Shown here: one piece after another, positions 8,068 through 32,803 of the stretch
Layout: the number at the start of each line of letters is the position of its first letter
How positions within the stretch are numbered: position 1 is the stretch's first letter
Assembly: GCF_029542785.1 (NCBI RefSeq)
Contig: NC_083371.1
Coordinates: 1 to 64,000, forward strand
Length of the DNA stretch: 64,000 nt
Source of the DNA: Malassezia japonica
Taxonomy: Eukaryota; Basidiomycota; Malasseziomycetes; Malasseziales; Malasseziaceae
Reading direction: 5' to 3'
The notes under the pieces: model-generated
Told to the model about the DNA's origin: nothing
Seen by the model: only the letters and a program-made list of their open reading frames with translations
Database searches by the model: none
Made by a program: the position numbers and the translations under genes

Positions 8068-8193
8068 TAGACTAAATTTGGCCAAATTAAAAATTGCCGG
8101 GAATCGATACGTTAAATCCTCGACGTAGCGCATAAGGCAATTCAAGATTAATAACCAACAATCCACAATGGAGGATTATTCACATTGTTAAGA

Positions 8194-8963: not shown

Positions 8964-9172
8964 TCCGTTCTAAGTGATCTACTCTAAGAGTTCTGATACA
9001 TTATTCAAATCTTGCACGGAACCAAAAATGCAATGCGTTCAGCACCCGCTATGGATGCGCGCCGCCCAAGGCCTCAAGTAGTTACAAGGAATCTGTCATG
9101 CGCCCACGTTCCTGAGCGGTCTTACTCAATCGATTCTGGCCAATCATATCCCCGCGATATCCCGAGATTGGC

Positions 9173-10417: not shown

Positions 10418-10925
10418 ATTGTGATAGACATTTGAACACGAGTGCTTGACTATGGGTATGAATGTCATATTCGGTCATGGTGCATTCGTAATGATCAGTA
10501 AAAAATGGCGGACACGACTCGCTGCAATGATCTGTTATAGCACGAGCTATTCTAAGTTAAGGACGTTGATATGCATTTACTGGTGCAAAATCATATGAAA
10601 TGTGACTTAGTATGTTATTCTCGGTGTTCCTATTTGAGAAGCCATTGGATCATCCAAGTCTTGGCCTAAATGTGCACCCTCGAGCGAGTTTAATCAATGT
10701 TGAAAGAGGTCCTTACGCCTTGGTTATGACATCATACAGCGAGTTGGCCTCCGGCTTTCCGGTAACCGTATCTATGATTGCTGAGCAATTTCTATTTAAG
10801 CCTGCGCACGTGCCAACGTTGGCAGCTCCCTGTTTTCGCATGTCAAAACGCCGTGTGATCAGTGGGCTACGTGCGTCTTGGCGTATAATGGAGCGCTAAT
10901 ACCTTTATCGTCCTCCTTCGTTGAC
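10418..10925. other. Intergenic, no gene recognised
   Basis: About 500 bp lie between the coiled-coil gene and the Rua1-like regulator. No conserved ORF, RNA gene or repeat was recognised. Short open frames occur but lack family resemblance. It presumably holds the regulator's promoter and 5' UTR. Confidence 0.6.
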
Positions 10926-12161
10926 ATGCACACTCTCCAAGGCATTATACTGCCGATCTATTCTGCACAGACGTTTCCCTTTAGCTGCGTTACTTGCTCG
11001 CACCCGAACACGCTGCAGGTCCCTGGACCACCTATACCTAGCTATGAAAATTATGGAGGCGTCTCTCCCACGGCGCAGCACTTTCCGGAATGTTCATTGC
11101 TATCTAGCGAGCAGTTTTACAACACATACAGACAGCTGACGCAGCTCGCCACGCAGCCTCGCGAGACGCAACAAGAAACGCATATGCCTTGTGCTTGTAA
11201 GCAGCAGCGCCCTCCCCCCTCTCTAAGCTGCTCGCACGAGCCGCTCAATGCCGAAATGACTGGGGTTACAATGTCGGATCTGAATGTAAACGGGTCGTCT
11301 CTCATTGGCACAGAGCCTATCAGCATGTCTCCCATCAACCCCCTGCACCCCATAACGTCTATGTCGCCGCTTACGTCTATTTCCCCCTGTGATAGTACTC
11401 CCGACAAAATGTTTACTGGGCTCGAGACCGAACCCACCCTGCCTTCGGGCGTTGACGAGAATGTGATGGCACACTTTTCGTCCCTGTTTGGGGAAAAGAG
11501 GAATGGCCAAGGCGACCCGCAATGCGACCCTACGTTGCTCGAAGGCAGTCGGCTGCAAGTCCACTCGAAACGCCACAGAATGGCGAGCCAGATGAGCAAC
11601 GGCCCCGAAGGCGCCCGCGTCATTGTGCTGAACGAGTACGACCCTATCGTCCTAGAGACGTCTTCCGAGCAAAGCAGCAATTCCGAGCCCATCAAGTATC
11701 CGAATACGGAGGAGTTCCTGCACCGCACCATGCACTGTGAAATTCCGCCGTCGTCCGCGGATGTCACCTTCCGCGATGTTCCCCTGACCTGCGATGAAAT
11801 CGACTTATACACCCCTCGATGGCGTCGTGGAAGCTACAAGGACCGCTTCGGTTGGTGCCACTTGTGCGAAAAAGGCGGATGGTACTCGATGAAGCGGAGC
11901 CAGTATCTCTACCACATGCAGGTGTACCATGGCGTGAGCAACCTCACCAAGGTAGTGTACGACCGTCCACGTGCGATCCGAATCTGGGAGGATTCGTCGC
12001 AGTCTGTGGAGGTGCTTTGTCGTTATTGTGATTCGTGGGTTTCTCTCTCGCACGGACCCATTCGCGCATTGTCTTTCAAGTGCTATTTCAAGCATGCGCG
12101 CCACTGTCATCCGCGGCATTCTGGTGCGAAAGACGAAAGACCACTCATGAAGCGGACGTAG
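10926..12161 (+). CDS. Rua1-like transcription regulator (C-terminal Rua1/DUF4451 domain)
   Basis: The open frame extends upstream, but the first ATG is 10926, giving 411 residues. The N-terminal two thirds are low-complexity (Ser/Pro/Met repeats such as SPINPLHPITSMSPLTSISP). The last about 120 residues match the Rua1 C-terminal domain: TPRWRRGSYKDRFGWCHLCE, then KGGWYSMKRSQYLYHMQVYH and LCRYCDSWVSL, with Cys/His residues spaced as in an atypical zinc finger. Rua1 of Ustilago maydis is a nuclear activator of the ustilagic acid glycolipid cluster. The domain assignment is strong; the same target type here is inference. It converges on the glycosyltransferase with only 28 bp between the stops. 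Confidence 0.85.
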   Translation: MHTLQGIILPIYSAQTFPFSCVTCSHPNTLQVPGPPIPSYENYGGVSPTAQHFPECSLLSSEQFYNTYRQLTQLATQPRETQQETHMPCACKQQRPPPSLSCSHEPLNAEMTGVTMSDLNVNGSSLIGTEPISMSPINPLHPITSMSPLTSISPCDSTPDKMFTGLETEPTLPSGVDENVMAHFSSLFGEKRNGQGDPQCDPTLLEGSRLQVHSKRHRMASQMSNGPEGARVIVLNEYDPIVLETSSEQSSNSEPIKYPNTEEFLHRTMHCEIPPSSADVTFRDVPLTCDEIDLYTPRWRRGSYKDRFGWCHLCEKGGWYSMKRSQYLYHMQVYHGVSNLTKVVYDRPRAIRIWEDSSQSVEVLCRYCDSWVSLSHGPIRALSFKCYFKHARHCHPRHSGAKDERPLMKRT

Positions 12162-12189
12162 TAATGTTAAATATAACGAATGAATGACA

Positions 12190-13623
12190 CTACAAAGTGC
12201 TACGGCGAACTTGAAGCGTCTCGGCGACGAGCGCTGCCGCCGCCGCTGCGCCGCCGCGGGCCCGCAGGTCGTCGGCTAAGCGCGCGGCACGTTCCACGTA
12301 GCTTGGGTTGTCGAATAGCACCTCTTTGGCCGCCACAAGAAGCTGTGTAGCGTCGAGGTGCGGTGCGGTGTCAATCGAGCGGCCAGCGCCCGCGTCCTGG
12401 AGCCGCATGGCAAAGTCGAAGCAGTCCAGCCAGGCGGGCAGGCACACCTGCGGTTTGCCAAAGTACAAGGCTTCGTGCAGCGTGTTTGCGCCGCCGTGGT
12501 TGATGTGTAGCTTGACGCTGGGGTGTGCAAGTACAAGCATCGGGTCGGTAAACCACTCGAGCACCCAGAACCGATCGTTGGTGCGTGCGTCAGGCGGCAG
12601 ATGCGCCTGCTCGCTCGCGCTCAGCTTCCACAGCACGTGAACGGGCAAGGGACGTAGTGCGTCGTAGATAGCCTGGACGCGAGGCGCGTCGAGCCGGTAT
12701 ATCGATCCGAGCGACACGACCACGATCGGAGACCCGCTCGACTTTGCGGTCTCCATCCACGTATGCAGCGGCTGGTTGGCAGGGTCGTCGCCCACCCTGG
12801 CCCATGCTTCCGCAAAGTGCTTTGGCTGTACGAGGCGAGCGGAAGTCTCGGACAGCACAGTGCCGATCCACTGCACCTTGTCTGGCCAAGCCACGCGCGG
12901 GTCGGCCAAGAGCGGGCTGGTGTTGTTGAAGAATGCGACAGCGCCCGCGCCATACGCGTCCGGCGCAGGGACCCCCGCCGCGCTGTCTTGGTCAATGATG
13001 GGCTTCAACTTTGTGACCAGCGCGTAGCCGTACCGCACGACGACTGCCAAGTCGTACAGGCGGTGCCACCAGGAAATTTTCACCAGGCTCGTCCCCGAAC
13101 CGAATGGCGGAAAGATTTTCGGAAGACACTCGGGAAAGTTGAAGTACGGCGGCAATGGCGTATTGACGATAAAAGGTACCTGCGCGCGCAGTGCTACAGA
13201 GAGTGCCGCCTCGGTCAGGGTGTCGCATACCATGAGCCATGGGCGGTGTTCCGCGACCCAAGCCTCCAATCGTGCGGCCGGCAGACGGTAGTTGGCCTCA
13301 CTACGAAGTAGTTCTGTGCAGTTGTAGACCATTGCGTCCACGTTCCGGATACCTGCATCGTTAAAACGGCGGCACGTCTCTTCCGATAGCTCGCACGAGT
13401 CCCATATCGCGAGGAACTCGAGCCCCGCCGCGCGTACCGCGCGCTCGCGCTCACGCGACGTGGCGAGTACCGTGCGCACCCCGGAGTGTTGCTTTGCAAA
13501 GCACTCGGCTATCGCAAGCAAGGGGTTCAGCTGGCCCACGTTGCCGAGCGACGCAAAAAGCACGAGCGGCGGTGCGGCCGGTGCAGTCATCGTTGCGCTG
13601 GCCATGCCGGTCGCACGCAACAT
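12190..13623 (-). CDS. UDP-glycosyltransferase (GT1 family)
   Basis: This 477-residue single-exon protein is a GT1-family glycosyltransferase moving a sugar from a UDP donor to a small lipophilic acceptor. The N-terminal acceptor domain begins LVLFASLGNVGQLNPLLAIA. The C-terminal donor domain carries the GT1 signature in HINHGGANTLHEALYFGKPQ, followed by DCFDFAMRLQ. No signal peptide or C-terminal TM helix is seen, unlike animal ER UGTs, so a cytosolic enzyme like fungal or bacterial natural-product glycosyltransferases is likely. It lies 122 bp downstream of the ACC on the same strand. In this context it is the candidate tailoring enzyme for the PKS product. ATG 13623 is used; ATGs 13605 and 13590 are alternatives. 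Confidence 0.88.
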   Translation of the reverse strand: MLRATGMASATMTAPAAPPLVLFASLGNVGQLNPLLAIAECFAKQHSGVRTVLATSRERERAVRAAGLEFLAIWDSCELSEETCRRFNDAGIRNVDAMVYNCTELLRSEANYRLPAARLEAWVAEHRPWLMVCDTLTEAALSVALRAQVPFIVNTPLPPYFNFPECLPKIFPPFGSGTSLVKISWWHRLYDLAVVVRYGYALVTKLKPIIDQDSAAGVPAPDAYGAGAVAFFNNTSPLLADPRVAWPDKVQWIGTVLSETSARLVQPKHFAEAWARVGDDPANQPLHTWMETAKSSGSPIVVVSLGSIYRLDAPRVQAIYDALRPLPVHVLWKLSASEQAHLPPDARTNDRFWVLEWFTDPMLVLAHPSVKLHINHGGANTLHEALYFGKPQVCLPAWLDCFDFAMRLQDAGAGRSIDTAPHLDATQLLVAAKEVLFDNPSYVERAARLADDLRARGGAAAAAALVAETLQVRRSTL

Positions 13624-13745
13624 CGTCCGGCCGCTGCCCTATCCGACGCATGCGTGCTTTTGGTATGCGCCATGCCACGCATGTATCCCGACGCGCGGAC
13701 CTGGGTAACTCAAAAACGCATATCAAAAACCATCGTAATCAACCC

Positions 13746-16700
13746 CTACTTGTCTGCAAGGGCCATCCTGCGCGCTTCCGGCGAGAGCGCATCGAGCGCC
13801 GCACGTACGGCGCGTGCCTGTGCAGTAGCAATGGCCGTCTGGATCGCGGCGTCCGCGGCATCGAGCCGGTGCACGGCGGCCTGGTCCGAGTCGCTCTCCT
13901 TGTACCCCGCCGCGTCGTACACGAGCGCCTGTGCAGCGTCCGCGTCGAGTGCCGTGTCCGCGCGCAGTAGCGCCTGTTGTGCACGGAGCTCGGCGAGGCG
14001 GCGGCGGGCGCGCCAGTAAAAGTACGCGCGTGCGCCCTCCCAGGCGACCGTGCGCCGGAGCACGCCTGTGGCGAGCATGCGGCCGGCGCGGTCGTGGGCG
14101 TCGGCATACTCGAGTGCGATTGTGTGATAAAGCGGGGCGAGCTCGCGTTCGCGTTCCGCGGCGCGTGCGGCCGCCGTGGCACGCGCGTCGCGGTCCGTGG
14201 CGGTGCGCTGGCGTGCGGCAAGCTCGGCGTAGCCTGCGTCGAGGCGCTCCATGACCGCGCGCTGGCGATCCGTGCGGAACTTGATCTCGACGAGGCCTGC
14301 GGCCTCTAGGACGCCGCCCCGTGCGCTGGGGTCGGCGCTCATCTCCATGTGCCCGCTGGCGCTCACCGCTGAGTCGAGCACGACCCAGGAGCCCCCGCGC
14401 AGCTCTGCACGGGGCGGGAGGTGGACAAACACGGGGCGCGTGTAGGCCGCGAGTGCGTCGACGATCTTGCTGCCCTGCGTGAGCATTTCGTCGCGCATGT
14501 CTTGCTGGCCGCCGCTAAAGCCCCGCCAGTTGGCGAGCACGAGCAGCGGGAGTCCCTCGCGATGAAAGTCGGTGATGGCCTGCGCCGTCTTGAGCGCCGA
14601 GTTGGGGTACCACACGAGGCCAGCCTCGAGGACGCGCTGCTCGGTCGAATGCGGGTTCGCGGGGTCCGCCGGCACCACGCGCTCGAGCATGCGTGTCTCG
14701 GCGGCGATCACGCCGAAAGGGATGCCGCCGAGGCGCGCACGGCCGACGACTACGCTCGTGGCCCACTCGGGCAGCGTCTCTTGGAACGAGCCGCGGTCAA
14801 AGAGGCCGGGCGCGTGCGCGTCGCCTACGATCAGCAGGCGTGGGTCGTACGCGGCCGCCGGCGGGACGTACGCCACAGTGCGCTCCACCGGGTCGAGGCT
14901 CGGGCTGCGCGGCAGTGGCGCGCCGGCGTGCGCGGGCACATAGGACAACCAGCGTACGTACGCATGCATTGCGTCCAGGTCCGAGCGTGCGACGAGGTGC
15001 GACACGCCGTTGTGCGCCATGACCTGCGGCCCGCCGAGCTGCATGTTGCTCACGTACACCTGGCGGCCGAGCAGCTGGTTCAGCGCCTGGAAGCCAGTGA
15101 GGACCATCGGCGCGGACTCGACCTGGATCACGCGGCCGCTTAGGCGCGCGAGGTACGCGCCGATGCCGACGCTGCGCCCTGTCACGATGGTCGCGGTGAA
15201 GATCGCCTCGCGCGCGCGGCTCATCTCGCCGGCGGCGCGCCCGCTACCCGAGAGCGACTCGACGCCGAGGCCCGCATCCGCGGCGCCGATAATGTCCGTG
15301 AGGACGTGGTGCGTCGTGCCGTCCGGCGCGCGCACCGCGCGTGTCCGGACGCACCCCGGGCGGAGTGCCGCGAGCGCGGCGTCGTCGAGGTAGAGGTACT
15401 CGATGCCGCCCGCCGCATCGTCGCGGAGCTTGGCGCGGAACTTGTCCAGGACGTCGGGCACGAGCCCGAGGCGTGCGCCGCTGTTGGCCGACACGTAGAG
15501 AAAAGGCACTTTTTCGGCGCGTGCGCGCGCTGCTGCCGCGGAAAACAGCGCGGCCTCGGCGGGCCCCACTGAGCCGGCCTGCACGCTAATGTCGTTGGCA
15601 GCGAGGTACAGCGGGCGCCCCGCGGGGTACTCTTCCGTAGCGAGCACAAGGTGCCACACCACCATCCCGACCGTGTTTTGCGCCGGCGCGCGCGAGGTAG
15701 GCGCGAGGCCGTCTGCGCCGAGCACGAGCTCTGTGGCAGACACGACGGGGTCCGTGTCGGACGCCTGGCGGCGCTGCGCGCACAAGGCGTGGCGCAGCGC
15801 ATCCACGAGGTCGTACACAAACGTGGTGCCGAGGCGCTCTGCGCACGCGCGGCGCGTCGCGAGTGCCGAGCGGTTCGTGTACGGCGTGTGGATGCTCGTC
15901 CCGCCGCGTGCTGGGCAGCACGACGGGGCGGTGATGGTGCGCAGCACCGTGTCGCCGCTCGGCAGGGCCTCCTCGTCGTACACCTCGTACCGCAGCTGGA
16001 ACGCGGACATGGCCGAGACAAAGACGTGCACACGGCGCGGCTGTCCCCCGCCCGAGAGCATGATGCGCATTTCGGCCTCTTCGACGCGGAGGCGTGTGAA
16101 GCGCTCCGTGTAGCGCTCGGCGAGCGTGCGCACCACGCCGAGAATGTCCTTGAGCGCGAGGTCAATGGGAAAGAGCCACGAGAGAAAGAGGTGCGAGCCG
16201 TCTGCGGCGCAGTACGCGTGCTGCCCCAGCGCGACCTCGAGGCAGTCGAGGCTCTCGACGAGCACGCGCTCGCTCTCGACCAGGACGTACTCGCGCACGT
16301 CGCGCGGCGGGGGCATCGGGCGCACGAGCACGCGCACAAAGAAGCGCACGTCGGCGCGGTTGCGTGTGCCCCGGGCGTGGTAGAGGTAGACCGTGGACGA
16401 ATTGAGCTGTACCGGCGCCACGTCAAAGTGCGCGAGCATCCGGTCCAGCTCGAGCTCGTGCGCCAGCGCGGGCTCCACGTTTTGGATCCCCTGTTCCTCC
16501 CCCCAGTGCTCGCCGCTGCGGCGCCAGGTGATGTACAGCGGGTAGAGGCGCTCGCGGCCCACGAGCACCGTCACGCGGCACACACCCGCGCGGGCGAGCG
16601 CCGGGGCCTGGCGCGCAATGACCTGCGCGATTTCCGGGCGCAGCTCCGACTGCGGCCGGCGCTCGCCCACGACGGCGACAGTCAGCACATGCACGGGCTC

Positions 16701-19700
16701 GTCCGCCGGCGCGTCGAGACACGGCAGCGCACGCGAGACGAGCTCCTCGAGCTGCACGCACCTCGCGCAGCAGGTCATGGCGCCTTGGCGCAGCGGCGGC
16801 GGTACGCTGCGGTGTGCCTTGTGTGCGGCGAGGTCCGTGACCGACGCCTGCCGCTCTTTTGTGCGGTCGCTGAGCAGGCCGGGCGGCATGCGGAACGCCC
16901 AGGTGAGCAGTGCACAGGCGTGCCCCCCCACGCGCAGCGTCGCCGGGCGGAACGAGAGGATGTCGTAGACGCGGTACGCGCGCAGGACGTACGTCGCGAG
17001 CGCCGCGTACGCGACGCCTGGAGAGGGGTGCGCAAAGAACGTCTGCAGCACGTCGACGGTGCGGTGCGTCGTCGCGCTCAGCGTCAGCAGCGGCTCGAGG
17101 CCCGGCGTATGGGGCGTCGAGGCACGCCCGGTGCGCGCGAGGATGCTCGTGCGCAGCGTGCGCTCCATCTGCTCGCGGCGCGTCGCAAAGCTGGGGAGCT
17201 GCGCGCAGAGGAGAATCTCGCGTGCTTTGAGTGCGACCGGCGCGACGGCGGCGCCGCGCAGCACCGACAGGCTCTGCAGCGCACGCACCATGTCCTGCGC
17301 ACCCGCCGCGTTACTCACCAGGTCTGCGTCCTGGACGTGGGGCTCGAGCAGCTGGAGGATGAGCGCATTCTTGCTTGCACACCCCTCGTGCGAGAGCTGC
17401 AGCGCGAGGATCGCATCCTCGGAATCGCCCGCCTCGCGGCGGCGCAGCACCGCATCCGGGCCGCCTGCAAACACGGCCTCAACTGCGGCGTACTGCGCAA
17501 AGAGCGCACAGAGCGCGGCACACTCGTAGTACGCCAGGCCGAAACGGTGCTCTTCGACGACCGCCACCGCGGGCGCGAGTGCCGCGGCCGCGTCTGCGTC
17601 CGCGACCCGGTCGAGGGTGCGGCGCAGCGCCTGCACTGGAAACACGCCGCAGGCCTCGTCGAGCGCGGCGTGCAGTGCGCGTTGTACCGCCAGAGGGACG
17701 CGGCTGTGCGCGCGCGCGAGTGCCTCGCGCAGCTGCGCGAACGGCAGGGAGGGCTCGCGCAGCATCGCGACAAACGTGTCTACGGCCGTGTCAATGTCCT
17801 TGACGAGGTAGCCGGCAAGCACATGCTCTAGCGCCGCGCGTGCGTGCGCCAGGCGCTGGTGCGGCTCGCGGCTGGGGAGCTCTGCCGGCGCTCCGGTCGG
17901 CCACGCGCCCGCAAACGGCGCTGGGCGCCGAAACAGCGATGCGTCGTCTACGGCGAGCACTGCGACGAGGTCTCCTGCAGCGAGTGTCTCGCCCGGGGCG
18001 CGCGCAAAAGACACGGCGCCGCCCACCTCGGCGACGACCGGCAGGTACATTTTCATCACCTCGATCTCGGCGATGCTCGTGCCCGCGGCGACGTGCTCGT
18101 GCTCGCAAACGAGGAAGCGCACGAGCTTGCCCGGCGTCGAGCAGCAGATGCGCGACGGGTCCTGCTCCTCTTCAAAGACGCACGTCTGCCCGTTGATCGA
18201 GAGGCGCAGCTGCGCTGCATCCTCGCTCCAGTACACGGTGTGTGCGCGCCCCGACAGGCGCACAAGCATACCCCCGTCGCTCAGCTCGCGCACATCTACG
18301 TGCGCCGTCTGTGAGTTTATGCAAAGCGCCCACTCGCGCGGCGCACACTGGCGTGCCTCGACGGCGAAGAGCTTGCCGTCGTACACAAACTCCATCGCGT
18401 ACACCACGCGCAGCGTCCCGCATGGGGGCGCCTGCCCCCGCCGCAGAGCGAGCCGAAATTCGTCGCGCGACGTGCGCGCAAGTAGCTGCGCACGCACCGC
18501 CGCGCCGCACAGCACCGCGACGTGGAGCGCGACGCGCTTTTGGGGCGCCTTGTCGCGGAGCAGAGCATCGAGCCAGCCGGTGGTCACTGCATTGCGTGCA
18601 AATGCAGGCGATTCGAGCAGTGTCACGAGGTACTCGACTGTGGTGCGAAACTCGCCGTGGACCGACAGCGCCTTGAGCGCGACGACCATCTGGCGGCGCG
18701 CCTCGTCGCGGTCCTTAGCATGGACGAAAACGTGGCCAAATTGCGAGTCTGCATACTTGTGCAGCGCACCGTGCGCACCGATGCTAAAGTAGCCCCATGT
18801 CCCAGGGCCCGAGCGCAGCTGGAGCTCGTGCAGCGCGCCGAGGTTGGGCTGGAAGCCTTCGTCGGGGTTCTCGGCGGTGATGCGGCACGCGACCACGTGG
18901 CCTTGCGGCGCACGGGCCTCCTTGTGCAGTGCCCTCCACACGCCGGCGCCACGAGGGACGCCGTACAGGGCGCAGACGCTGTCGATTTGCTGCAGTGGGA
19001 TGCCCATCGCTACCTGGAGCTGTGCGGCAGGGATGTTGATTCCCGTGACCATTTCCGTCGTGGGGTGCTCGACCTGTAGGCGGGGATTCAGCTCGAGGAA
19101 CGTGTAGGCCTCTGTCTCGGGCGTATAGAGCCATTCGACTGTGCCCACGGACTGGTAGCCGACGAGCTCGGCGAGGCGTACGGATGCCTGCTCCATCGCG
19201 CGGCACACGTGGGGGGGAGCGATGCATATCGGTGCTTCTTCCATGATCTTTTGGTGGCGGCGCTGCACGGAGCAGTCGCGCCCATACAGGCTGACCACCT
19301 GGCCGTGCTGGTCGGCGAGCAGCTGGACCTCGAGGTGCCGCGCGTCCTCGGCGAGCTTCATGAGAAACACGGGCGAGCCTGGCACCTCGCCGAGGACCGC
19401 GCCGTAGAGCTGCGTAAAGCTCTCTGGGCTGTGGCACATGCGGATGCCCTTCCCGCCCCCGCCCTCGCTCGCTTTGAGCATCACGGGGAAGCCGATCGCA
19501 TGTGCGCACGCCAGGCCGTGCTCTGCGTCCCGAAGGCACGCACGCGCGTACGCGGCGCGCGGCACGGACACGCACCCGTCCGCCCCAATTTCTGTCTCGC
19601 ACACCTCCGAGCCGCTCCAGGGCAGGCAGGGGAGTCCCGCGTGCTGCGCGACGATCATTGACGATATTTTGTCACCGAGCGCGTGCATCGCCGCTGCGGG

Positions 19701-20143
19701 CGGGCCCATGAATGCGATGGGCGGCGAGAGCGCCGCAAGCTGCTCCGGCAGACGAGGATCCTCGGACGCATGCCCCCAGCCGGGCCACACTGCGTGGACG
19801 CCCGCGCGCTGGGCGACGTCGACGATCAAGTCGACGTTGGCAAAGTTGTTTGCATTCCCGCCCGCGGGCAGCTCAAAGTACATGTCTGCGAGGCGGATGT
19901 ACTCTGCATTTGCGCTCAGGTCGTGCTCGGTCGCGAGGGCGACCAAGGTCACGCACGTTCGTCGCCAAACGTCATGTAGGCCCACATGCGGATCGAGCGG
20001 ATGCACTTGACGGCAGCCAGGCCATTGTTGCATATCAGTAGCTTGGACACGGCGCAGTGCCCGCCGCGTGCGCGGACAAAGTCGTCGACCAGCATCCGCG
20101 GCTCGTCGCAGAGGCCAGAGCGCGTGCCCGGAGGAGGAGCCAT
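13746..20143 (-). CDS. Divergent acetyl-CoA carboxylase with an apparent -1 frameshift near the N-terminus
   Basis: This is a multidomain eukaryotic ACC of about 2132 residues, carboxylating acetyl-CoA to malonyl-CoA. In order: biotin carboxylase (KLLICNNGLAAVKCIRSIR, KASEGGGGKGIRM, RHLEVQLLADQHGQ), biotinyl motif EVMKMYLPV (Lys codon 18051-18053), a central region, and carboxyltransferase (GARLGLVPDVLDKF, PQVMAHNGVSHL, ANWRGFSGGQQDMRDE). It is divergent from housekeeping ACC: for example MEMSAD replaces MEMYAD. From ATG 20143 the frame is open to TGA 19951-19949, just after the conserved TFGDERA. The next conserved block (VTLVALATEHDL) continues one frame back, and the rest is open to 13746. 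One extra G would restore it. An assembly error, a true null allele or programmed frameshifting are all possible. It is divergent from the PKS. Confidence 0.85.
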
Positions 20144-20391
20144 GGACGGCATGCCGATACAGGTGCGTCTTGATCTGCGCAAGCAAGACGCGCGCCAAGC
20201 GCCATCTGCAGCGCGATGTACCCGTGCGCGTGTGCCGCCCAGGGCCACCCTTTCGGCAGCACGAGCGCGCCGCGCGTGGCAGGCCAAATTTCCTCGCTGC
20301 TGGCATTGCGCATACCAAATTTGTTGCCATGCACAGACCACTTTTAAAAGAGGGGCACGGCGCTCGCTAGTGCCTTGTGCCGCCGCCAAGC
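20144..20391. promoter_or_regulatory. Bidirectional ACC-PKS promoter
   Basis: These 248 bp separate the ATGs of the divergently transcribed ACC and PKS. A TATA-like TTTTAAAAG lies at 20342-20350, about 42 bp before the PKS ATG. The sequence TGCGCATACCA (20307-20317) contains a GCGCA core resembling the Rua1-responsive element as I remember it, with one mismatch to the degenerate consensus. CCAAATTT occurs twice nearby (about 20283 and 20314). Confidence 0.5.
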
Positions 20392-23300
20392 ATGTCGGAG
20401 ACGAACGCGAACCTGACAAACGGCGCGCCAGCCGACGATACGGTGTGTATCGTCGGTATCGGCGTCATGCTCCCGGGCGCGAGCGACAAGGCGGAATTCC
20501 TCGATATGCTCACGTCGAAGCGTAGCGGCATCGGAAAGGTGCCCAAGGACCGCTGGAATGCAGACAAGTATACGGGCCGCGGAGACATTCCCTCCAAGAT
20601 CTGCACGGACCGCGGCGGTTTCCTACACTATATCCACGACTTTGACAACCTCGAGTTTGGCATCTCGCGCAAAGAGGCATACGACATGGACCACCACCAG
20701 ATGGCCCTGCTGAGCACGTCGCTGCAGGCGCTCGAGGACTCGGGGCTGGCGTACCGCGGGTCGAGCTGCGGCGTGTACGTCGCGGGCTCGCACGAGGCGC
20801 ACAACATTCCCCGCGACATGTACGAGATCAGCGCATACAACGGCACAGGCAGCTCGCCGTCGATCCAGGCAAACCGGCTGTCGTTTGCGTTTGACCTCAC
20901 CGGGCCGTCCATGTACCTGGACACGGCGTGCTCCGGCGGTCTCACCGCCGTGCATTTGGCGCGCTCGGCGATCCTGCAGGGTGACTGCGATACGGCGCTC
21001 GCGGCGGGCACCTCGCTCATCTTCTCGCCGAACGCCTCGATCTCGTTCAGCAAGCTCGGCACGCTGTCGCCCGACGGCGTGTGCCGGACATTCGACGCGG
21101 ACGCCAACGGATACGTGCGCGGCGAGGGCTGCGCTGTCGTGGTCCTTAAGCGCACGTCGGCCGCGCTGCGCGACAACAATCATATCTACGCAGAGGTGAC
21201 CGGCAGCTGCATCAACGCCAACGGCCGCGGCAGCTCGCTCACCATGCCCGAGCGGCGCATGCAAATGCACACGATGCGCCGCGCCTATGCACAGGCGCGC
21301 CGCGCACCGCACGAGGCCGTCTACGTCGAGTGCCACGGCACAGGCACGACGGTCGGCGACCCGATCGAGGCGAACGGCGTCGGCGAGGTCTTCAGCGAGG
21401 GACGCGCCGAGGCGCGGCGCCTCGCGATCGGGTCCGTCAAGACCAACGTCGGCCACCTCGAGACCGGCGCCGGTATCGTCGGCCTGATCAAAACCGCGCT
21501 CTCGCTCGACACCGGCCTGATCCTCCCGTCGCTCAACTTTCGCACGCCGAACCCCAAGATTCACTGGGACGCGTTCAAGATCCGCGTCGCGACCGAGGTC
21601 GAGGAGTATCCCTCGGACGCCCTCACGCACGACGGACGGTACGTCGCGTCAGTCAGCTCGTTCGGGTTTGGCGGCGCGAATGGGCACCTGGTGCTCGAGC
21701 GCGCGCCGCACCATGCGCCGCCCGCCTCGGCGCTCGCGAAAGACGACCTGTTTCTCGTGGCCGCGGGCGGCATGACCAGCCGCTCGCTCGCGGCCGTCAC
21801 AGAGGGCATCTCTGCCGCATTTGCGGCCGCGCCCGACGTGGTGGACGCCGCGCTAATCGCACGCGTCGCGACCGAGCGCGCACGCGGGCACACCCTGACC
21901 CAGTACGCAGTCGGGGCCGCCGGCGCGCCGCTCAAGTTTAGCGAGCAGAAGCTCATTGCCTCCAAGGACCTGCGCATGCAGAAGCTGTTTGTGTTTAGTG
22001 GCCAGGGGCCGCAGCACGGCGCCATGGGCCGCCGCCTCTATGCGCGCTACCCCGCGTTCCGCGCGTCGATCGAGCGTAGCGACGAGGTCGTGCGCAAGTT
22101 CTACGGGCGCTCGTTCGTGCACGACTACGGGCTTTTTGCGCCGGGCGGCACCGCCGCCGTTCCTGCCGGCGATGACGGTGTATGGGACGTCGACGGGATC
22201 GTTATCTCGATCACCATGTTCCAGATCGCGCTCTACGACCTGTGGGTCGCTGTCGGTCTCGTGCCCGACGCAGTCGCCGGCCACTCGGTCGGCGAAATCG
22301 CGGCGCTCTACGCCTCGGGCGCCTTCTCCCTCGAGCAGACGCTGCGACTCGCGCTTGCGCGCTCGCATGCGCTTGCGGATCTGCGCTCGGTCGGCGGCAC
22401 GATGGCTGCACTCGGCACGGATGCCGCCAGCGGCGAACGCCTTGTGCGCGACGTCCTGGACGAGCAGCGCGTCTCGGACGGCTTGTGGATCTCGGCGGTA
22501 AACTCGGTCGAAGCAGTCACCGTGTCGGGGCGCAAGGAGCTCATTGCCGCGCTCGTCGAAAAGGCGCAGGCCCGCGGCATGTTTGCACGGCCGCTGCGCG
22601 TCGGCGGCCCGTACCACTCGCCGCTCGTGGACGTGTGCAAGGCGTCGTTCTGCGACGAGGTGCACGCCGTCCTCGGCGAGGGCGGCGTGTCGCAGCGCAC
22701 GTTTGTCAGCACTGTCAACGGCACAGTGTACGAACCTGGCAGGCGGTTTGAAACGGACTATTGCTGGGACAATGTGCGGAACCCCGTGCTGTTCCAGCCC
22801 GCGCTCGATGCCTACTTTGCACACGGCAAGCAGCAGGAGCAGTCGATGCTCGTTGTCGAGATCGCCCCGCACAATGTACTCCTCTCCTACATGGACGAAA
22901 TCGCCAAGGCGGCCGGCGTTGCGGAAACGACCACGGTCGTGTCGAGCGCTCGGCGCCCGAACCTGCGCGCAGGCGAGGCGCCCGACGCCCCTGCCGAGGT
23001 CGAGCAGTTCCTCCACGCGGCCGGCACGAGCCTGTGCGCGGGCGCGCGCGACCTGTCCGTCGACCTGCTCGAGAGCCTCGCGCCGGTGAGCCTCCCGCTT
23101 GGCTACAACCACAAGCGTCTGCCCAACTTTCCCCTGCAGGGCGTGGAACAGGAGTTCTCCGAGGACCCCGTGTCGGCGAACCGCCGCCTGGCGTTTGACC
23201 CGCGCCCACTGAGCTCGCCGCTGTTCCGCATGTCGCCCAAGACCCACAGCTGGACGCTGGGGCACCAGATCCGCGAGGCGATCGTCGTGCCCGGCACCGC

Positions 23301-26300
23301 ATACCTCGAGGCGGCATTTGAGTCGGGCGCGCGCACGCTGCGCCATGTGCAGATCCACCGCGCGCTGATGCTTCGCGAGGACGACCTGCCCAAGTACTGC
23401 GGGCTGCGGCACACGGACGTGCCAAACCAGTGGACGTTCAGCTCCGCGTCCAAGGTCACAACCGACGACCGCGGCGTGATCCTCGACACGAAGCACGCGT
23501 CGGGCTTTGGCTATCCCGAGCCCTCGACGCGCGGCCCGGCCAATGCGACGGAGCTGCTCGGGGAGAACTTTATGGACGACTTTGACCTGACGATGGAAGC
23601 GGACCACTTCTTCTCCAAGATCCGCAGCACGGGCGCCTCGTACACGCGCGAGTTTGCCATGATCACCAAGCTCCTGACGTCGTCCAAGCGTGGCCGCGAC
23701 TACCTCAGCTTTGTCGACCCCCTGCCGGACCTCTGGACGACCAAGGAGGCGCAGGGCATGTGTGTGCACCCCGGTCTGCTCGACTCCCTGCTGCTGTCGA
23801 CGTGGGCGATCGTGTTCTCGTTCGAGGACCAGAGCAAGCTCGTCAAGGACACGTACATGCCCTCCTCTTTCGAAGAGGTCTCGCTCCTGGTCGACCCGGC
23901 AGAGCTGCGCAGCGTGCGCGGCTTCATGATCCACTTTATCTGCCTCGAGGCGAACGAGATCGGCACCTGCCTCGACATTACGCTCTTTGATCGCGACACG
24001 GGCCGCACGCTTGTCATTGTGCGCGGCCTGCGCTCGCGCCGTGTCATTGAAAACGACGGGCAGGAGATGGTCGCGTACACAGAGACGTGGGAGCCGCGCT
24101 TCCTGGGGCCCATGGCGCACCTTGCGCCGGCGCTCGACGAGAAAGAGGCGGTGGCGGCCGTGGCCGACATGTCGCTTGTCCACGCCGCAGACCGCCTCTC
24201 TGCCGAAGCAGAGCGCAACGCACAGGAGATGTATGCACTGGACGCGGTGCGCGACGCCGTGGCACTTGGCGCGGTGGCCCTCCTCGAGTCTGTGCTGGAA
24301 CATGCCGCGGCCGAGGGGCGCCAGGTCGTGCGTGTGCTCGAAGTGTACGTCCACCAGAAAAAGGCGCGGCTCAGTGGACTCGTGGCCCGCGCCGCGAAGC
24401 GTGGGATCCACCTCGAGGTCGTTCCGCTGAACCTCGCCAAGAACAAGGCGCAGGGAGACGCGCCATACGACATTGCGTCTGCGGCCAAGGACGCCGAGCG
24501 CGTGCGCCCGGCAAGCTTCGAGTTTGTGTGTGCCATCGACGTGCTGCGCTCGAGCCCAACGCCGCAGGACGCACTCGACGAGCTCGAGGATATGCTTGTT
24601 CCTGGCGGCGTGCTCGCCGTGTTTGAGCTCTCTGCTGCGAATGCAGTGGTGTGTGCTGCATGCTACGGTGCTGACAAGCATACCACCGACTTTTTGCAGT
24701 CGGCCGGCTTTGACAGCGGCATGCACACCACGGTGGTGCGTCAGCGCACCACCCCTTGGCTGTGCCGTGCAGGCCACGTCGACGTGGATCCCAGCGGCGT
24801 GACCAAGCTGGATGATACCACGGTCGTGTACCGTTTCTGCGCTGGCACAGAGACGGAGCTTGTCGAGGCGGTCAAGTCGCTTGGCGCGAATCCCACAGGC
24901 TCGGTCTGGGTCCTCGGCGAGGACGATGCGCAAGGCGCGCGTGGCCTCTCGCTCGCAGGCACCATCGAGAACGAGTTCCCAAACATCCATGCCTACGGCG
25001 TGGTCTTTGCCAGCGACGTGCCCGAGGAGCGCCGCCTGGCCGTGCTCGCCGAGCTGATCCAGCTCGCGCCTACAGGTGCCGTCGAGCCCTTTACGCGCGT
25101 CTGCGGTGGCGGCACCATCTTCCAGCGCCGCATCGTGCGTGCGCCTGGAATTGTCGAGCAGCCGCTCACGAGCCCGTGGGTGCTGGACCTCGATGGGCGC
25201 CAGCTCGCTGCGAGCGTGTCGGCACTTGTGCCTCACCAGTACCTCCCGCCACCGCTCGGCCCGCACGAAGTGCTCGTGCGCACCGAAGCTGTCGCACTCA
25301 ACTTTAAGAATGTACTCTCCGCCACAGGACTCTTGCCGGCCAACGACCGCCTGTCAGAGTTTGCAGGTACCGTCGTCGAGAAGGGCAGTGACGTGACGCG
25401 CTTCCAGATTGGAGACCGCGTCATGGGCTCGTCCAACCTGTGCCGCGAAGGCACGCATGCGACTGCGGGCGATCTGCTGCTCACCGCGGTGCCGGACAAC
25501 ATGAGCACCCTGGAGGCCGCCGCCTTCCCGATCGTCTACGGCACCGTGTACCATGGCCTGGTACAGCTGGCCAACATCCGCCGCGGCGACGCGATCCTGA
25601 TCCAGGCTGCTGCTGGCGGTGTCGGCGTGAGTGCGATCCAGATTGCGCAGCGCCGCGGCCTCGAGGTGTTTTGCACCGTGGGCTCGCAGCAGAAGCGCGA
25701 CTTCCTGCACAAGACCTTTGGCATCCCGTACGAGAACATGTCCAACTCGCGCTCGATCGAGGCATGGCGCGGCGAAAGCCGCCGCTGGCTGCAGGCACGC
25801 AACAAGAATGGCTTTGACGTGGTGCTAAACTCGCTACAAGGCGTGGGACTGCAGGCGGGCCTGGACTCCCTCGCGCCGCTCGGGCGCTTTGTCGACATCT
25901 CGAAGCGCGACCACCTGGCGGGCAGCCCAATGACCATGGCGCACTTTGCCAAGGCGATCTGCTACTTTGCGATCGAACTCGGAATGCTTGCACACAAGGA
26001 CCCCGAGCGCATGGCTCAGCTGATGGAAGAAGTCACTCAGGAGCACGTCCATGCGCCGTTCCAGTACCTCGTGGGCCACCCCTTCTCGGGAGTCAACGGC
26101 CTCCAGGAGGCGTACCTCTTGATGGAGTCCGGCACGCACATTGGCAAGATCGCCGTGGACCTCTCCGAGGCTTGCAGCGCTGGCACACGCTCGCCGCAGC
26201 TGCCGCCCAAGGCGGTGTTCGACCCACGCGCTACCTATGTGTTGCTGGGTGGCTGTGGTGGACTAGGTCCGCGTCTGGCCATTATGATGATCGCCAACGG

Positions 26301-28455
26301 CGCCCGCAACATCATCCTCACCGGCCGCCGTGGAAAGCTCGACATGGTCGACAAGCGCTCGATCGATGCGATCGGCGGCGACCCACTCTATCCTGGCGTG
26401 CGCGTACGTGTGATGGCTGCCGACGCATTGAGCGAAGACGACATGCGCGGCGTGTTTGATGCAGCGAACGAAATGGCGCCACTCGCGGGTATCTTCCACA
26501 TGGCCGTCGCGCTCGCCGACGACCAATTTGTGAACATGGACGAGGCCAAGTTCAAGCGCGTCACGGACAGCAAGCTCGGTGTGCTGGAGGTGATCGAACG
26601 GCTGGTCGATGTGTCTTCGCTGGACTTTTTGATGCTGTTTTCTTCGACCGCCGCGCTCTACTTTAACCCGGGCCAAGCGAACTACAACGCGGCCCAGGCC
26701 TACTTCAACCGCATGGCCAAGGACCACCGCAACATCATCAGCATTGCCGTGCCCGCCATCACCGATGTCGGTGTCTTTGCGCAGCTCGTGGAGGCCAAAG
26801 GAAAGACGGCCGCGACCAAGTCGATGCTTGCGCTGGCGTGCTCGTCGCGTGAGCTGTGCATGCGGATCCGCGATGCGTTGTCGCGCACGGTGACCAACCA
26901 GCCGGTGCCGTACTACATCCCGGGCAACCTTGACTGGACCGTGAGCTACAAGATCGCTGAATCGTGCCGCACCTCGTTTTCGCACCTCGCCGAGCACGAC
27001 GACGACGACGAGGTTGTCGAGACGGGCCTCCAAGAGGTGGATGCAGTCACCGGCATGCTGTGCAAGCTGCTCAACCTTGAGCCCGACAGCATCGATGACT
27101 CGGCGTTCCTCTCGGCGCTCGGACTCGACTCGATGTCTGCCTCGCGCCTCAGTGCGGTGCTTGATGCAGAGCACGGCGTGAAGATGACCCAGCTCCAGCT
27201 GCTCGGTCCCGTGTCTGTCGGCGCTCTGCGCGCGGTGCTCGCCGCGACCGGTGACGAGAACGGCGGACCCAAGCAGGCCCTTGCCGACAAGGCCGAGGAC
27301 TATGCTGCAGACGTCACGAAATTCGAGAGCGAAGCAATCACCGACGAAACGCTCGGTGAGTTTGACATTGCGCAGATCAACGCCGAGAACGACAAGCTCC
27401 GCGTTTTCATCACGAGCGGTACAGGGTTCCTGGGTAGCGCGGTGCTGGCAAGCATGCTTAGAGCCCTTCCCCGCGCCCACTTTACAGCGCTTCTGCGTGG
27501 CGACTGTGTCGCCGGTGCAGAGCAGCGGCTGCGCGAAGCGTTCTCAAAGAACATGCACGATACCGCAGAACTCGGCCGCGTCCATGTCGTGCTCGGCGAC
27601 GTGACAAAGCCGCGCCTCGGGCTGTCGGACGCAGACTGGACGCAACTTGCGGCAGAGACGGACCTCGTCGTGCAGACACACGGCAAGGCCGACCACGTCG
27701 CGGGTTACCGCAGCCTCGTGCAAGTGAACACGTACTCGACGAGCCAGGTGCTTAAGCTCGTCGCAACTACGAAGCCCAAGGCCCTCTGCTACTTCGGCTC
27801 CACAAACATGTGGATCAACACGGCAGGCGAAAAGAACGTCAAGGTCATACGCGAAGACTTTGACTTGTCTGCACTCGCATCGGGACTGCTGGGTGGATAC
27901 CGCCAGTCCAAGTGGGTGTCCGAGAGGCTTGTGGAGCGCGCACGCGCTCGTGGCGTGCCGGTGCTCGTGGTTCGCCCCGGTACACTCGGTGGTATCGCCG
28001 GCATGGGCGAAGAACTGAACCGCGAGACCTACCAGCTTGGTCGCAGCAAGGACAGCTTTATCAATCGCATCATCGCAGGGTGTGAGCAGTTCGGATATGC
28101 GCCCATCTCGCAGGCGAACTTCTCCGAAACACCGATCAGCTGGTTCGGCGACATGTTTGGCCGTCTGCTGACGAAGCCAGCGGCGTGGTCTGGCAAGTAT
28201 CCTGCGTTCCACATCAAGAACCCGCACGCGCTTACGGACATGAACAGCTCGCGCGTGGAGACTACCTTCAAGTGGATTCCCATGGACGAATGGGCTACAA
28301 GTTTCAAGGCATATGCAAACACGGAGGAAGGTTCTACAAACCCTCTCACGCCTCTGGTCGGCTATATCGACCTGCTCGTGTCGCTGCCTGACTTCGATAT
28401 GCAGTTCACCCGCTCCGTGCTCGGCGAGGAGTTCGTTGAATGCCCCACGTCGTAG
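20392..28455 (+). CDS. Highly reducing type I polyketide synthase with terminal thioester reductase
   Basis: This single-exon gene encodes 2687 residues. I start it at the first ATG, 20392. Order and key residues: ketosynthase (Cys180 in DTACSGG, His315, His355), acyltransferase (Ser632 in GHSVGE), dehydratase (His958 in LGHQIRE, Asp1131 in HPGLLDS), a methyltransferase-like region without the glycine-rich SAM motif, enoylreductase (AAGGVG, about 1740-1745), ketoreductase (GGCGGLG, Tyr2098), acyl carrier protein (Ser2247 in GLDSM), and a C-terminal NAD(P)-dependent thioester reductase (SGTGFLG, Tyr2503 and Lys2507 in YRQSK). The dehydratase has Glu where HxxxG normally ends. The expected product is a largely reduced fatty-acyl-like chain released as aldehyde or alcohol. 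The adjacent ACC could supply malonyl-CoA. The subcellular site is probably cytosol. Confidence 0.95.
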   Translation: MSETNANLTNGAPADDTVCIVGIGVMLPGASDKAEFLDMLTSKRSGIGKVPKDRWNADKYTGRGDIPSKICTDRGGFLHYIHDFDNLEFGISRKEAYDMDHHQMALLSTSLQALEDSGLAYRGSSCGVYVAGSHEAHNIPRDMYEISAYNGTGSSPSIQANRLSFAFDLTGPSMYLDTACSGGLTAVHLARSAILQGDCDTALAAGTSLIFSPNASISFSKLGTLSPDGVCRTFDADANGYVRGEGCAVVVLKRTSAALRDNNHIYAEVTGSCINANGRGSSLTMPERRMQMHTMRRAYAQARRAPHEAVYVECHGTGTTVGDPIEANGVGEVFSEGRAEARRLAIGSVKTNVGHLETGAGIVGLIKTALSLDTGLILPSLNFRTPNPKIHWDAFKIRVATEVEEYPSDALTHDGRYVASVSSFGFGGANGHLVLERAPHHAPPASALAKDDLFLVAAGGMTSRSLAAVTEGISAAFAAAPDVVDAALIARVATERARGHTLTQYAVGAAGAPLKFSEQKLIASKDLRMQKLFVFSGQGPQHGAMGRRLYARYPAFRASIERSDEVVRKFYGRSFVHDYGLFAPGGTAAVPAGDDGVWDVDGIVISITMFQIALYDLWVAVGLVPDAVAGHSVGEIAALYASGAFSLEQTLRLALARSHALADLRSVGGTMAALGTDAASGERLVRDVLDEQRVSDGLWISAVNSVEAVTVSGRKELIAALVEKAQARGMFARPLRVGGPYHSPLVDVCKASFCDEVHAVLGEGGVSQRTFVSTVNGTVYEPGRRFETDYCWDNVRNPVLFQPALDAYFAHGKQQEQSMLVVEIAPHNVLLSYMDEIAKAAGVAETTTVVSSARRPNLRAGEAPDAPAEVEQFLHAAGTSLCAGARDLSVDLLESLAPVSLPLGYNHKRLPNFPLQGVEQEFSEDPVSANRRLAFDPRPLSSPLFRMSPKTHSWTLGHQIREAIVVPGTAYLEAAFESGARTLRHVQIHRALMLREDDLPKYCGLRHTDVPNQWTFSSASKVTTDDRGVILDTKHASGFGYPEPSTRGPANATELLGENFMDDFDLTMEADHFFSKIRSTGASYTREFAMITKLLTSSKRGRDYLSFVDPLPDLWTTKEAQGMCVHPGLLDSLLLSTWAIVFSFEDQSKLVKDTYMPSSFEEVSLLVDPAELRSVRGFMIHFICLEANEIGTCLDITLFDRDTGRTLVIVRGLRSRRVIENDGQEMVAYTETWEPRFLGPMAHLAPALDEKEAVAAVADMSLVHAADRLSAEAERNAQEMYALDAVRDAVALGAVALLESVLEHAAAEGRQVVRVLEVYVHQKKARLSGLVARAAKRGIHLEVVPLNLAKNKAQGDAPYDIASAAKDAERVRPASFEFVCAIDVLRSSPTPQDALDELEDMLVPGGVLAVFELSAANAVVCAACYGADKHTTDFLQSAGFDSGMHTTVVRQRTTPWLCRAGHVDVDPSGVTKLDDTTVVYRFCAGTETELVEAVKSLGANPTGSVWVLGEDDAQGARGLSLAGTIENEFPNIHAYGVVFASDVPEERRLAVLAELIQLAPTGAVEPFTRVCGGGTIFQRRIVRAPGIVEQPLTSPWVLDLDGRQLAASVSALVPHQYLPPPLGPHEVLVRTEAVALNFKNVLSATGLLPANDRLSEFAGTVVEKGSDVTRFQIGDRVMGSSNLCREGTHATAGDLLLTAVPDNMSTLEAAAFPIVYGTVYHGLVQLANIRRGDAILIQAAAGGVGVSAIQIAQRRGLEVFCTVGSQQKRDFLHKTFGIPYENMSNSRSIEAWRGESRRWLQARNKNGFDVVLNSLQGVGLQAGLDSLAPLGRFVDISKRDHLAGSPMTMAHFAKAICYFAIELGMLAHKDPERMAQLMEEVTQEHVHAPFQYLVGHPFSGVNGLQEAYLLMESGTHIGKIAVDLSEACSAGTRSPQLPPKAVFDPRATYVLLGGCGGLGPRLAIMMIANGARNIILTGRRGKLDMVDKRSIDAIGGDPLYPGVRVRVMAADALSEDDMRGVFDAANEMAPLAGIFHMAVALADDQFVNMDEAKFKRVTDSKLGVLEVIERLVDVSSLDFLMLFSSTAALYFNPGQANYNAAQAYFNRMAKDHRNIISIAVPAITDVGVFAQLVEAKGKTAATKSMLALACSSRELCMRIRDALSRTVTNQPVPYYIPGNLDWTVSYKIAESCRTSFSHLAEHDDDDEVVETGLQEVDAVTGMLCKLLNLEPDSIDDSAFLSALGLDSMSASRLSAVLDAEHGVKMTQLQLLGPVSVGALRAVLAATGDENGGPKQALADKAEDYAADVTKFESEAITDETLGEFDIAQINAENDKLRVFITSGTGFLGSAVLASMLRALPRAHFTALLRGDCVAGAEQRLREAFSKNMHDTAELGRVHVVLGDVTKPRLGLSDADWTQLAAETDLVVQTHGKADHVAGYRSLVQVNTYSTSQVLKLVATTKPKALCYFGSTNMWINTAGEKNVKVIREDFDLSALASGLLGGYRQSKWVSERLVERARARGVPVLVVRPGTLGGIAGMGEELNRETYQLGRSKDSFINRIIAGCEQFGYAPISQANFSETPISWFGDMFGRLLTKPAAWSGKYPAFHIKNPHALTDMNSSRVETTFKWIPMDEWATSFKAYANTEEGSTNPLTPLVGYIDLLVSLPDFDMQFTRSVLGEEFVECPTS

Positions 28456-28961
28456 GTAGAACCGGGCCTTGGTTTGCGTGCTAGGGTTTTTTCAATATAC
28501 GTCCCCTTTCACTTCGAATCGCAATTGACTTTTCAAAATCTTTTTTTTTTTTTGAATAGTGTGAATCAATGCTAGAGTTACAACTGTACAAAGATCATTG
28601 CTACGCAACATGAAAGTTGGCATTCTCAGCGCAACACTGGGCCTTGAGCCCTGCTCAAGCAAGCACTATTTATGTATTACAAAGCTCCATTATCACCTGT
28701 AGCGCCTACTGTGTGTCATCAAACCAGCATTCGGCTTTGTTTTTTGTTTTTTTTATTTTGCCAAGCTTGACAAGTACAAAAGGCTAGGCTATACGGCAAC
28801 ATTTCCCAATACCTCCACTATGTATTTCCCCACACCCGTGGCTCGGCATGCACATGCCAAAATCACGTGCATGTCCCTGTTCGGGGGTTGATCGAGTATC
28901 CACGGCCCATTTGATCTCCACGTCCAATTTACGGTCCTCGTTCCTGTTTCTCTGTCACACA
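28456..28961. other. AT-rich intergenic with T tracts
   Basis: This 506-bp spacer marks the sharp change from GC-rich PKS to AT-rich island. It contains homopolymeric T runs near 28541-28553 and 28739-28759 and no convincing gene. The 3' part should be the promoter of the small secreted protein gene. Confidence 0.6.
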
Positions 28962-29204
28962 ATGTACGGCTTCAAGGCTTCCGTCATCGTTCTTCTCGCT
29001 CTTACTCTACTCCTCAACGTGGTTTGCGCTGCCGGTATGGAGAAGCACGTCGCTATGCAGAAGCGCGCTGGCCAGGACTGTGACAAGTGCGCTCAGTCCT
29101 ACGTTGACTGCTTCTTCCGCTTCGGTATTTCCGGCTGCACTGACCCGAACGCGGAGCACTTCACTTACTGCCGCAACTGCTACGGCGTTGATCCCTCCTG
29201 GTAA
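28962..29204 (+). CDS. Small secreted cysteine-rich protein with Kex2 site
   Basis: This 80-residue protein starts MYGFKASVIVLLALTLLL, a clear signal peptide probably ending after VCAAG (residue 25). A dibasic Lys-Arg at 34-35 is a likely Kex2 site, leaving a mature 45-residue peptide. The peptide has six cysteines at 40, 43, 50, 59, 70 and 73 (C-x2-C-x6-C-x8-C-x10-C-x2-C), consistent with three disulfides. An upstream in-frame ATG (28848) exists, but the signal peptide begins at 28962. I recognise no family. Effector-like, antimicrobial or cell-wall roles are all possible; no function is assigned. Confidence 0.78.
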   Translation: MYGFKASVIVLLALTLLLNVVCAAGMEKHVAMQKRAGQDCDKCAQSYVDCFFRFGISGCTDPNAEHFTYCRNCYGVDPSW

Positions 29205-29534
29205 TTGCCTTGCTAGGACTGCCTCTACGGACGGATGGATATTCACAAATGCCACTATTTAAGACTGATCCTAAGAAACCTTTTACCAAATATGTATCCG
29301 CTACTATTGAGAACTTGTACGGTTCGCGAATCAGGGCACTGACGTCCGTGATTGATGCAACCCTCTCAAGTGTACCACTTCATTGATCGAGAGATTCTCA
29401 TAGCTCTTAGTACTCTATCTCTTACAACGATTCCCAAATCTACATCCACCTTGAACTCGATTGCCAATATACCCTCAATACGTTTGATCATGGCGGCGTC
29501 TTATTGATGCGCCGAGAAAAAATTGGGCCATTCC
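29205..29534. other. Intergenic between convergent genes
   Basis: These 330 AT-rich bases between the secreted-protein stop and the Dal5-type transporter stop hold no gene that I can see. They serve as two 3' ends. Confidence 0.6.
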
Positions 29535-31074: not shown

Positions 31075-31252
31075 TGCAATCTTTCTCGCAGCAAAAAGCT
31101 TCGCACTCAGGACTACATTTCATCTTGAAGTTCGACTGCTTTTTGATACATCCACGCAGAGGAGATTGCGCAATCTCGAACCTGGAATAAGGTTTAACTG
31201 CCCCGCGAAGAGCCAAATCTCAAGAGTCTATCACGAACAACCCCGCCTGGGC

Positions 31253-31266
31253 TCGGCCTAGACCGA
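31253..31266. promoter_or_regulatory. TCGG-N6-CCGA site 1
   Basis: Inverted TCGG/CCGA half-sites around CCTAGA, closest to the transporter start (about 190 bp upstream of it). Probable binding site of a dimeric Zn2Cys6 factor. Confidence 0.5.
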
Positions 31267-31422: not shown

Positions 31423-31426
31423 CGTT

Positions 31427-32771: not shown

Positions 32772-32803
32772 ATATAGTATACATTATAAAAACAAAAACA
32801 GCA

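Follow-up and report, generated by a model that had tools for sequence, protein, structure and literature searches.

A candidate motif-sharing cluster for a glycosylated reduced acyl chain at a chromosome end of Malassezia japonica

Our analysis suggests that the first 28.5 kb of a 64-kb window of the Malassezia japonica genome (the whole stretch of DNA analysed) form a cluster whose genes share a promoter motif and which, under an active Rua1-like regulator, would make and export an acyl chain that has been reduced and glycosylated. We put the probability of this reading at roughly 0.58. In the working that we propose, the Rua1-like C2H2 protein would bind the site CGCATRYCA upstream of its own gene and of those for an FAD oxidase, an ABCB pump, a glycosyltransferase and a polyketide synthase (PKS). 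The PKS would build the chain from malonyl-CoA, reduce it through its KR, DH and ER domains without methylation, and free it as an aldehyde or an alcohol by means of its reductase domain. The FAD oxidase and a TauD dioxygenase may modify the chain, the latter perhaps by hydroxylation, while the glycosyltransferase would attach a sugar to it and the ABCB pump would export the product. The extra ACC gene beside the PKS would be a Malassezia copy, probably drawn in as a supplier of the PKS before its frame broke in this species, and malonyl-CoA would now come from the ACC encoded on contig C7.

Gene content and chromosomal setting

The window forms the left-hand 64 kb of the 1.41-Mb contig C2, in a genome of 8.43 Mb on nine contigs. 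M. japonica is reported to have a genome of 8.3 Mb and is assigned to cluster A (PMC4634964), and nine chromosomes have been predicted for it (PMC7025860). CCTAAT telomere repeats open the window, and in the 10-kb stretches examined the starts of C1 and C3-C9 and the end of C2 are likewise telomeric.

Reading from the telomere, a gene for a BBE-type, FAD-linked oxidase (614 aa; 555-2399, plus strand; PF01565 and PF08031), whose best solved-structure match is MtVAO615, is followed by one for a TauD-family 2-oxoglutarate dioxygenase (347 aa; 2652-3695, plus strand; PF02668). Next comes a P-glycoprotein-like, ABCB-type transporter with two TM and two ATPase units (4366-8067, plus strand; ABC_membrane and ABC_tran matches). 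Judged from reading frames only, this gene has a short first exon, probably from about 4050, and a very short intron of about 30 bp within 4050-4366. An earlier note on this DNA had suggested an ABC pump at 4-8 kb as a possible exporter; the gene is real, and a motif copy upstream supports its inclusion. To its right lie what is probably a spliced gene encoding a small membrane protein (8194-8951, minus strand), likewise read from frames only and partly present in the ORF list, and an open frame of 414 aa with no Pfam match (9173-10417, plus strand).

The four genes on which the earlier note had based its cluster stand 11-28 kb from the telomere, and Pfam domain matches place them in the order that it gave. 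They encode a Rua1-like C2H2 regulator (411 aa; 10926-12161, plus strand), a GT1 glycosyltransferase (477 aa; 12190-13623, minus strand; UDPGT, 73 bits), the extra ACC and an iterative reducing PKS with a terminal reductase (2687 aa; 20392-28455, plus strand). The assignment of the regulator to the Rua1 type is borne out by a match of 61.5 bits to PF14616 (Rua1_C) against a cut-off of 27; it is the sole PF14616 match in the genome, and a combined search of low sensitivity retrieved no relatives of it outside the species. The ACC has a main open frame of 2068 codons (13746-19952, minus strand), out of frame with an N-terminal piece of 64 codons that ends in TGA (19949-20143, minus strand). From the ACC start at 20143 to the PKS ATG at 20392, the divergent start codons are separated by 248 bp (20144-20391), so the common promoter described earlier is there at the length given.

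Base composition divides this region. In 2-kb steps, the GC fraction is 0.47-0.51 over 1-12,000, 0.62-0.72 over 12,000-28,000, 0.46-0.54 over 28,000-44,000 and 0.60-0.69 over 46,000-64,000. The glycosyltransferase, ACC and PKS genes have a core-chromosome-like composition, yet they are embedded in an AT-rich subtelomere. Their GC3 values all lie between 0.75 and 0.85, which favours the cluster reading for these three, against 0.65 for the Rua1-like gene; the latter and the genes to its left sit in a block of lower GC, which counts against a single cluster.

To the right of the PKS, 29,535-45,140 holds MFS transporters, an arylsulfotransferase-like gene and two Zn2Cys6 regulators, with intergenic regions that lack the cluster motif. 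When repeats of the right flank (28,460-38,200) were sought elsewhere, a single match of 119 bp at 74% was found. Farther on, 46,863-64,000 carries genes for an M3 peptidase, PheRS, a RhoGEF/FYVE protein, Mus7 and a desaturase; from about 46 kb on, the sequence seems to belong to the conserved core of the chromosome.

A promoter motif shared along the cluster

The earlier note had treated the linked genes as a functional unit. This idea is supported both by a common promoter motif and by relatives of the glycosyltransferase and the PKS that lie on contigs of equal size elsewhere, as set out below. The 11-mer TTCGCATGTCA occurs on the plus strand upstream of the FAD oxidase gene (360-370), upstream of the ABC transporter gene (3937-3947) and 80 bp upstream of the ATG of the Rua1-like gene (10835-10845). 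These are three of its four exact copies in the 8.43-Mb genome; the sole copy outside the cluster (C2:467712-467722) is near a minus-strand frame that looks actin-like by eye. A weaker copy, TTCGCATGTTT, with two mismatches to TTCGCATGTCA, stands between the FAD and TauD genes (2550-2560, minus strand). The glycosyltransferase promoter holds GCGCATACCAAA (13659-13670, minus strand) and CGCATATCA (13717-13725, plus strand), and the same 12-mer GCGCATACCAAA recurs in the ACC/PKS promoter (20308-20319, plus strand). A further copy, TTCGCATGCCA (9169-9179, minus strand), overlaps the listed start of the 9173 open frame and, on its other side, lies some 220 bp upstream of the membrane-protein gene, which starts at 8951.

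In its common form, CGCATRYCA, the motif has 272 genomic sites, nine of them in C2:1-20.4 kb against 0.66 expected; the degenerate form was fixed after the sites had been seen, so that Poisson values overstate the excess and more weight should go to the de novo shuffles. Among the 100 sites that were listed out of the 272, no other 20.4-kb stretch has more than four, and 20 other 10-kb loci together held two copies. The seven cluster regions are the intervals between ORFs of the list, counted from the telomere as far as the PKS. Six of the nine copies are intergenic, in five of these seven regions (3.3 kb, or 2.3 kb after trimming), four of which lie upstream of the genes for the FAD oxidase, ABCB transporter, Rua1-like regulator and glycosyltransferase, and the fifth between the divergent ACC and PKS genes. 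Against this count the two regions without a copy, and the three copies that lie elsewhere: within ABC coding sequence, within glycosyltransferase coding sequence and, at 9169, at the 5' end of a gene. None of the eight intergenic regions on the right (4.7 kb, untrimmed) contains CGCATRYCA.

De novo, the 9-mer TTCGCATGT was found in four of the seven cluster regions. With first-order shuffling any 9-mer reached this level in 2 of 1000 sets, and with second-order shuffling in 0 of 300. One region, 8,068-9,172, holds most of a minus-strand gene absent from the ORF list; with that gene trimmed away, a re-run gave four of seven in 0 of 2000 shuffled sets. The same de novo test found nothing unusual in the eight right-hand regions. 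A search for 7- to 10-mers common to all three of the glycosyltransferase, ACC/PKS and Rua1 promoters found none. On the sequence evidence, the genes of the cluster are probably co-regulated.

The motif resembles the site of Ustilago Rua1, which we take to be KKCGCATWYYR, and this resemblance serves as a lead only. This pattern has five exact copies in the window, two of them in cluster promoters (the glycosyltransferase and ACC/PKS promoters), and it is not enriched across the window, with 51 sites seen at up to one mismatch versus 64 expected and 11 versus 12 for its 9-base core. The claim of a shared motif rests on the de novo tests and not on this pattern. Because the motif is spread across the promoters and is similar to this Rua1 site, we consider it likely that the cluster is larger than the four genes originally noted and that it is controlled by the Rua1-like protein.

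The synthase and glycosyltransferase, and the separate ancestry of the carboxylase

The PKS has the domain order KS-AT-DH-(degenerate MT)-ER-KR-ACP-reductase (NAD_binding_4), and this full domain set with its terminal reductase agrees with the earlier assignment as a putative reducing PKS with reductive release. In an alignment of 26 rows, the catalytic residues of the KS, AT, DH, KR, ACP and reductase domains are retained. None of the 26 rows has the glycine motif of the MT domain, and C-methylation is therefore not expected. Two substitutions are unique to the window PKS among the 22 rows other than chytrids: G962E in the DH motif, where the glycine is also replaced in three of the four chytrid rows, and G2342S in the nucleotide-binding TGxTG motif of the reductase, where all 25 other rows have glycine.

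The closest relatives of the PKS are P0002 (71%), P0004 (61%) and P0003 (60% over 54% of the query). Its nearest relative from a named species, the PKS of Exobasidium rhododendri (P0005), belongs to the same clade and is 57% identical along 54% of the query. Among the 120 matches listed, the PKSs of M. pachydermatis (twice), M. yamatoensis, M. vespertilionis, M. sympodialis and M. nana show 46-47% and fall in another clade. A second PKS of the genome (C3:607593-615767), of the type described as the core Malassezia 'type I iterative PKS', has an equal domain order with a terminal reductase, and like the window enzyme it is a single-enzyme reducing PKS. It differs in sharing 46% identity with the window PKS, in belonging to a separate clade (SH-aLRT 100) and in having an upstream gap without CGCATRYCA. 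Its neighbours differ as well: the four ORFs scanned around it gave three Pfam matches (nucleoporin, Nramp and VPS13), and neither an ACC nor a glycosyltransferase. The C3 PKS adjoins those of M. yamatoensis (80.6%) and M. vespertilionis (77.6%) within the Malassezia PKS clade, in keeping with the earlier supposition that the host is a Malassezia. The window PKS is not an ortholog of this core Malassezia enzyme. Its arrival by horizontal transfer is possible; an old duplication followed by losses would give an identical pattern.

A KS-family search of the genome pointed to four places: besides the two PKSs, open frames of 386 and 409 aa each gave a short match. The FAS_meander profile, run without a positive control, gave no match in the genome, and a PPTase candidate is found on C5 (48.8 bits). 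Among solved structures, the window PKS best matches mycocerosic acid synthase and animal FAS. Together with Pks2, these mycobacterial and animal proteins, all lipid-making reducing synthases, are among its best structure and NCBIfam matches; the window PKS scores below the curated NCBIfam cut-offs and differs from them in its ACP-reductase release. PKSs of similar make-up with 38-45% identity (P0022-P0025) come from the chytrids Spizellomyces, Cladochytrium and Physocladia, hinting at an old fungal family of lipid PKSs.

For the glycosyltransferase, the five close relatives are P0243 (62%) and P0244-P0247 (46-48%), after which identity falls to 33%; a match of 99% identity (P0241) was treated as the same species and left out of the five. 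The longest contig is exactly 24,298 bp both for the relative P0246 (47%) and for the PKS relative P0003 (60%). This equality of size indicates that the two genes are probably on one contig of another fungus, and by this match the glycosyltransferase and the PKS travel together. No contig of 24,298 bp appears among the 120 ACC matches listed. The glycosyltransferase (12190-13623) and P0243-P0248 have a glutamine (GQLNP or GQFNP) at a position where many GT1 enzymes carry the catalytic histidine, and another residue may act as the catalytic base.

The extra ACC has a different history. Its region (13746-20330, minus strand) gives seven ACC-type Pfam matches, and the BC, BCCP (with the MKM biotin site), central and CT domains are all present; the further ACC motifs examined are likewise retained. 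The frame that opens at 20143, however, stops at a TGA (19949-19951), and the remainder is read in another frame from 19952. Both sides of the break align to ACC and join without missing or extra residues, and for this reason we interpret it as a one-nucleotide frame break; the gap-free alignment on either side rules out an intron. No canonical -1 slippery heptamer was seen at the break by eye. P0121, a protein from an ENA contig of 35,058 bp, matches the window ACC except at 4 of 2068 residues, and its predicted start is a GTG just past the break. An assembly error confined to one genome is unlikely, as P0121 comes from a separate contig and starts at that GTG; the break is probably common to a second strain. 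Given a frame break so near its start, the window ACC is predicted to be dead. The description of this gene as a dedicated ACC is not supported, since in this strain, and probably in the second one, the gene is predicted not to function. We also considered whether the extra copy had lost an AMPK/Snf1-type site, and this was refuted by the retained RQASVTDL.

A canonical ACC is encoded on C7, with 56% identity to the window copy, and the sister ACC P0122 (61%) has an intact N-terminus. In ACC trees P0122 and the window copy have long branches and lie within Malassezia; P0123 is nearest to them (support 93-94), and they are not adjacent to the host's own ACC. A position of these two outside the other Malassezia ACCs was rejected (p-AU 3.2e-6), as was one within the host's own clade (p-AU 1.9e-4); both groupings were named after the tree had been seen, and the branches are long. 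On these trees, the window ACC, additional to the canonical one, is of Malassezia origin. The separate ancestries of the PKS and the ACC suggest that the two were united from different sources.

Comparison with known systems and alternative readings

In the ustilagic acid cluster of Ustilago maydis and Sporisorium, a Rua1-type regulator, a glycosyltransferase, an ABC exporter and a chain synthase are reported together (PMC7673458, PMC12715866), and the likeness to the present cluster holds at the family level only. In contrast to that cluster, a PKS with a terminal reductase (plus an ACC) takes the place of fas2, and no P450 corresponding to cyp1/cyp2, nor any acyltransferase, was found among the 26 Pfam-scanned ORFs of the 104 listed for the window. 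Malassezia species, skin commensals that depend on lipids, are described as lacking a cytosolic fatty acid synthase; the same source describes PKSs in five Malassezia strains and no FAS in the two M. furfur genomes searched (PMC5603697). Two PKS genes are listed for M. pachydermatis (PMC12722467), and the word 'polyketide' does not occur in the main text of the genus-wide Malassezia genome paper (PMC4634964). No description of this cluster was found in titles and abstract openings of the openly licensed literature. The earlier note had held that a PKS with its own ACC would be notable if the host were a Malassezia without a fatty acid synthase. The host is as supposed; the C7 ACC and the C3 PKS mean that the cluster need not be the only route to acyl chains.

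We could tentatively speculate that a Rua1-type glycolipid regulon was rebuilt around a PKS in a lineage whose fatty acid synthase had been lost. It would have retained the regulator and the DNA site of that regulator, and the PKS-glycosyltransferase pair, shared with Exobasidium-like fungi, would have been acquired, possibly by horizontal transfer. A Malassezia ACC gene would have been drafted in beside the PKS as a private source of malonyl-CoA and later lost.

It is less likely, although worth weighing, that the cluster is a decaying relic, which once made a product and now yields little or none owing to the loss of the ACC and the glycine changes in the PKS. The ACC frame break, apparently common to a second strain, and the substitutions G962E and G2342S point in this direction. 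So does the number of otherwise invariant columns at which the window ACC is off consensus (41 of 495, a count that leaves out the sister P0122 and two short rows), with 47 of 513 for P0122 and 17 of 471 for the next-highest row. However, the frames of the PKS, the glycosyltransferase and the regulator are open, a second ACC is present on C7, and the DH glycine is replaced in the chytrid rows too. Moreover, by the same measure the window PKS, at 14 of 698, deviates less than its sister P0002, at 30 of 714, and less than the PKS of Exobasidium, at 34 of 718.

We regard as improbable that the genes are independent subtelomeric neighbours, with the regulator and the pump serving other jobs and the motif arising by chance or belonging to another factor. 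The subtelomeric position, the shift in GC3 between the regulator and the other three genes, and a degenerate motif form picked after the fact would fit this explanation, whereas the density of the motif, its placement in promoters and the glycosyltransferase-PKS contig match in another fungus argue for a connected set. Still more doubtful, to the point of being very unlikely, is that the extra ACC was a self-resistance copy, such that the PKS product inhibits ACC and the cluster carried an insensitive target. It is true that a duplicated essential enzyme, divergent at conserved positions, adjoins the PKS, and that its sister P0122 is intact at the N-terminus, but the broken frame would give no protection now, and titles and abstract openings of the literature yielded no fungal case of ACC self-resistance.

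If the cluster works as we propose, at least one Malassezia species would be able to make a dedicated acyl glycoside, perhaps a skin surfactant or an antimicrobial. With a concrete motif and gene set in hand, both its regulation and its product are directly testable. In addition, the extra ACC would be a case in which a housekeeping gene was pulled into a PKS cluster and then lost.
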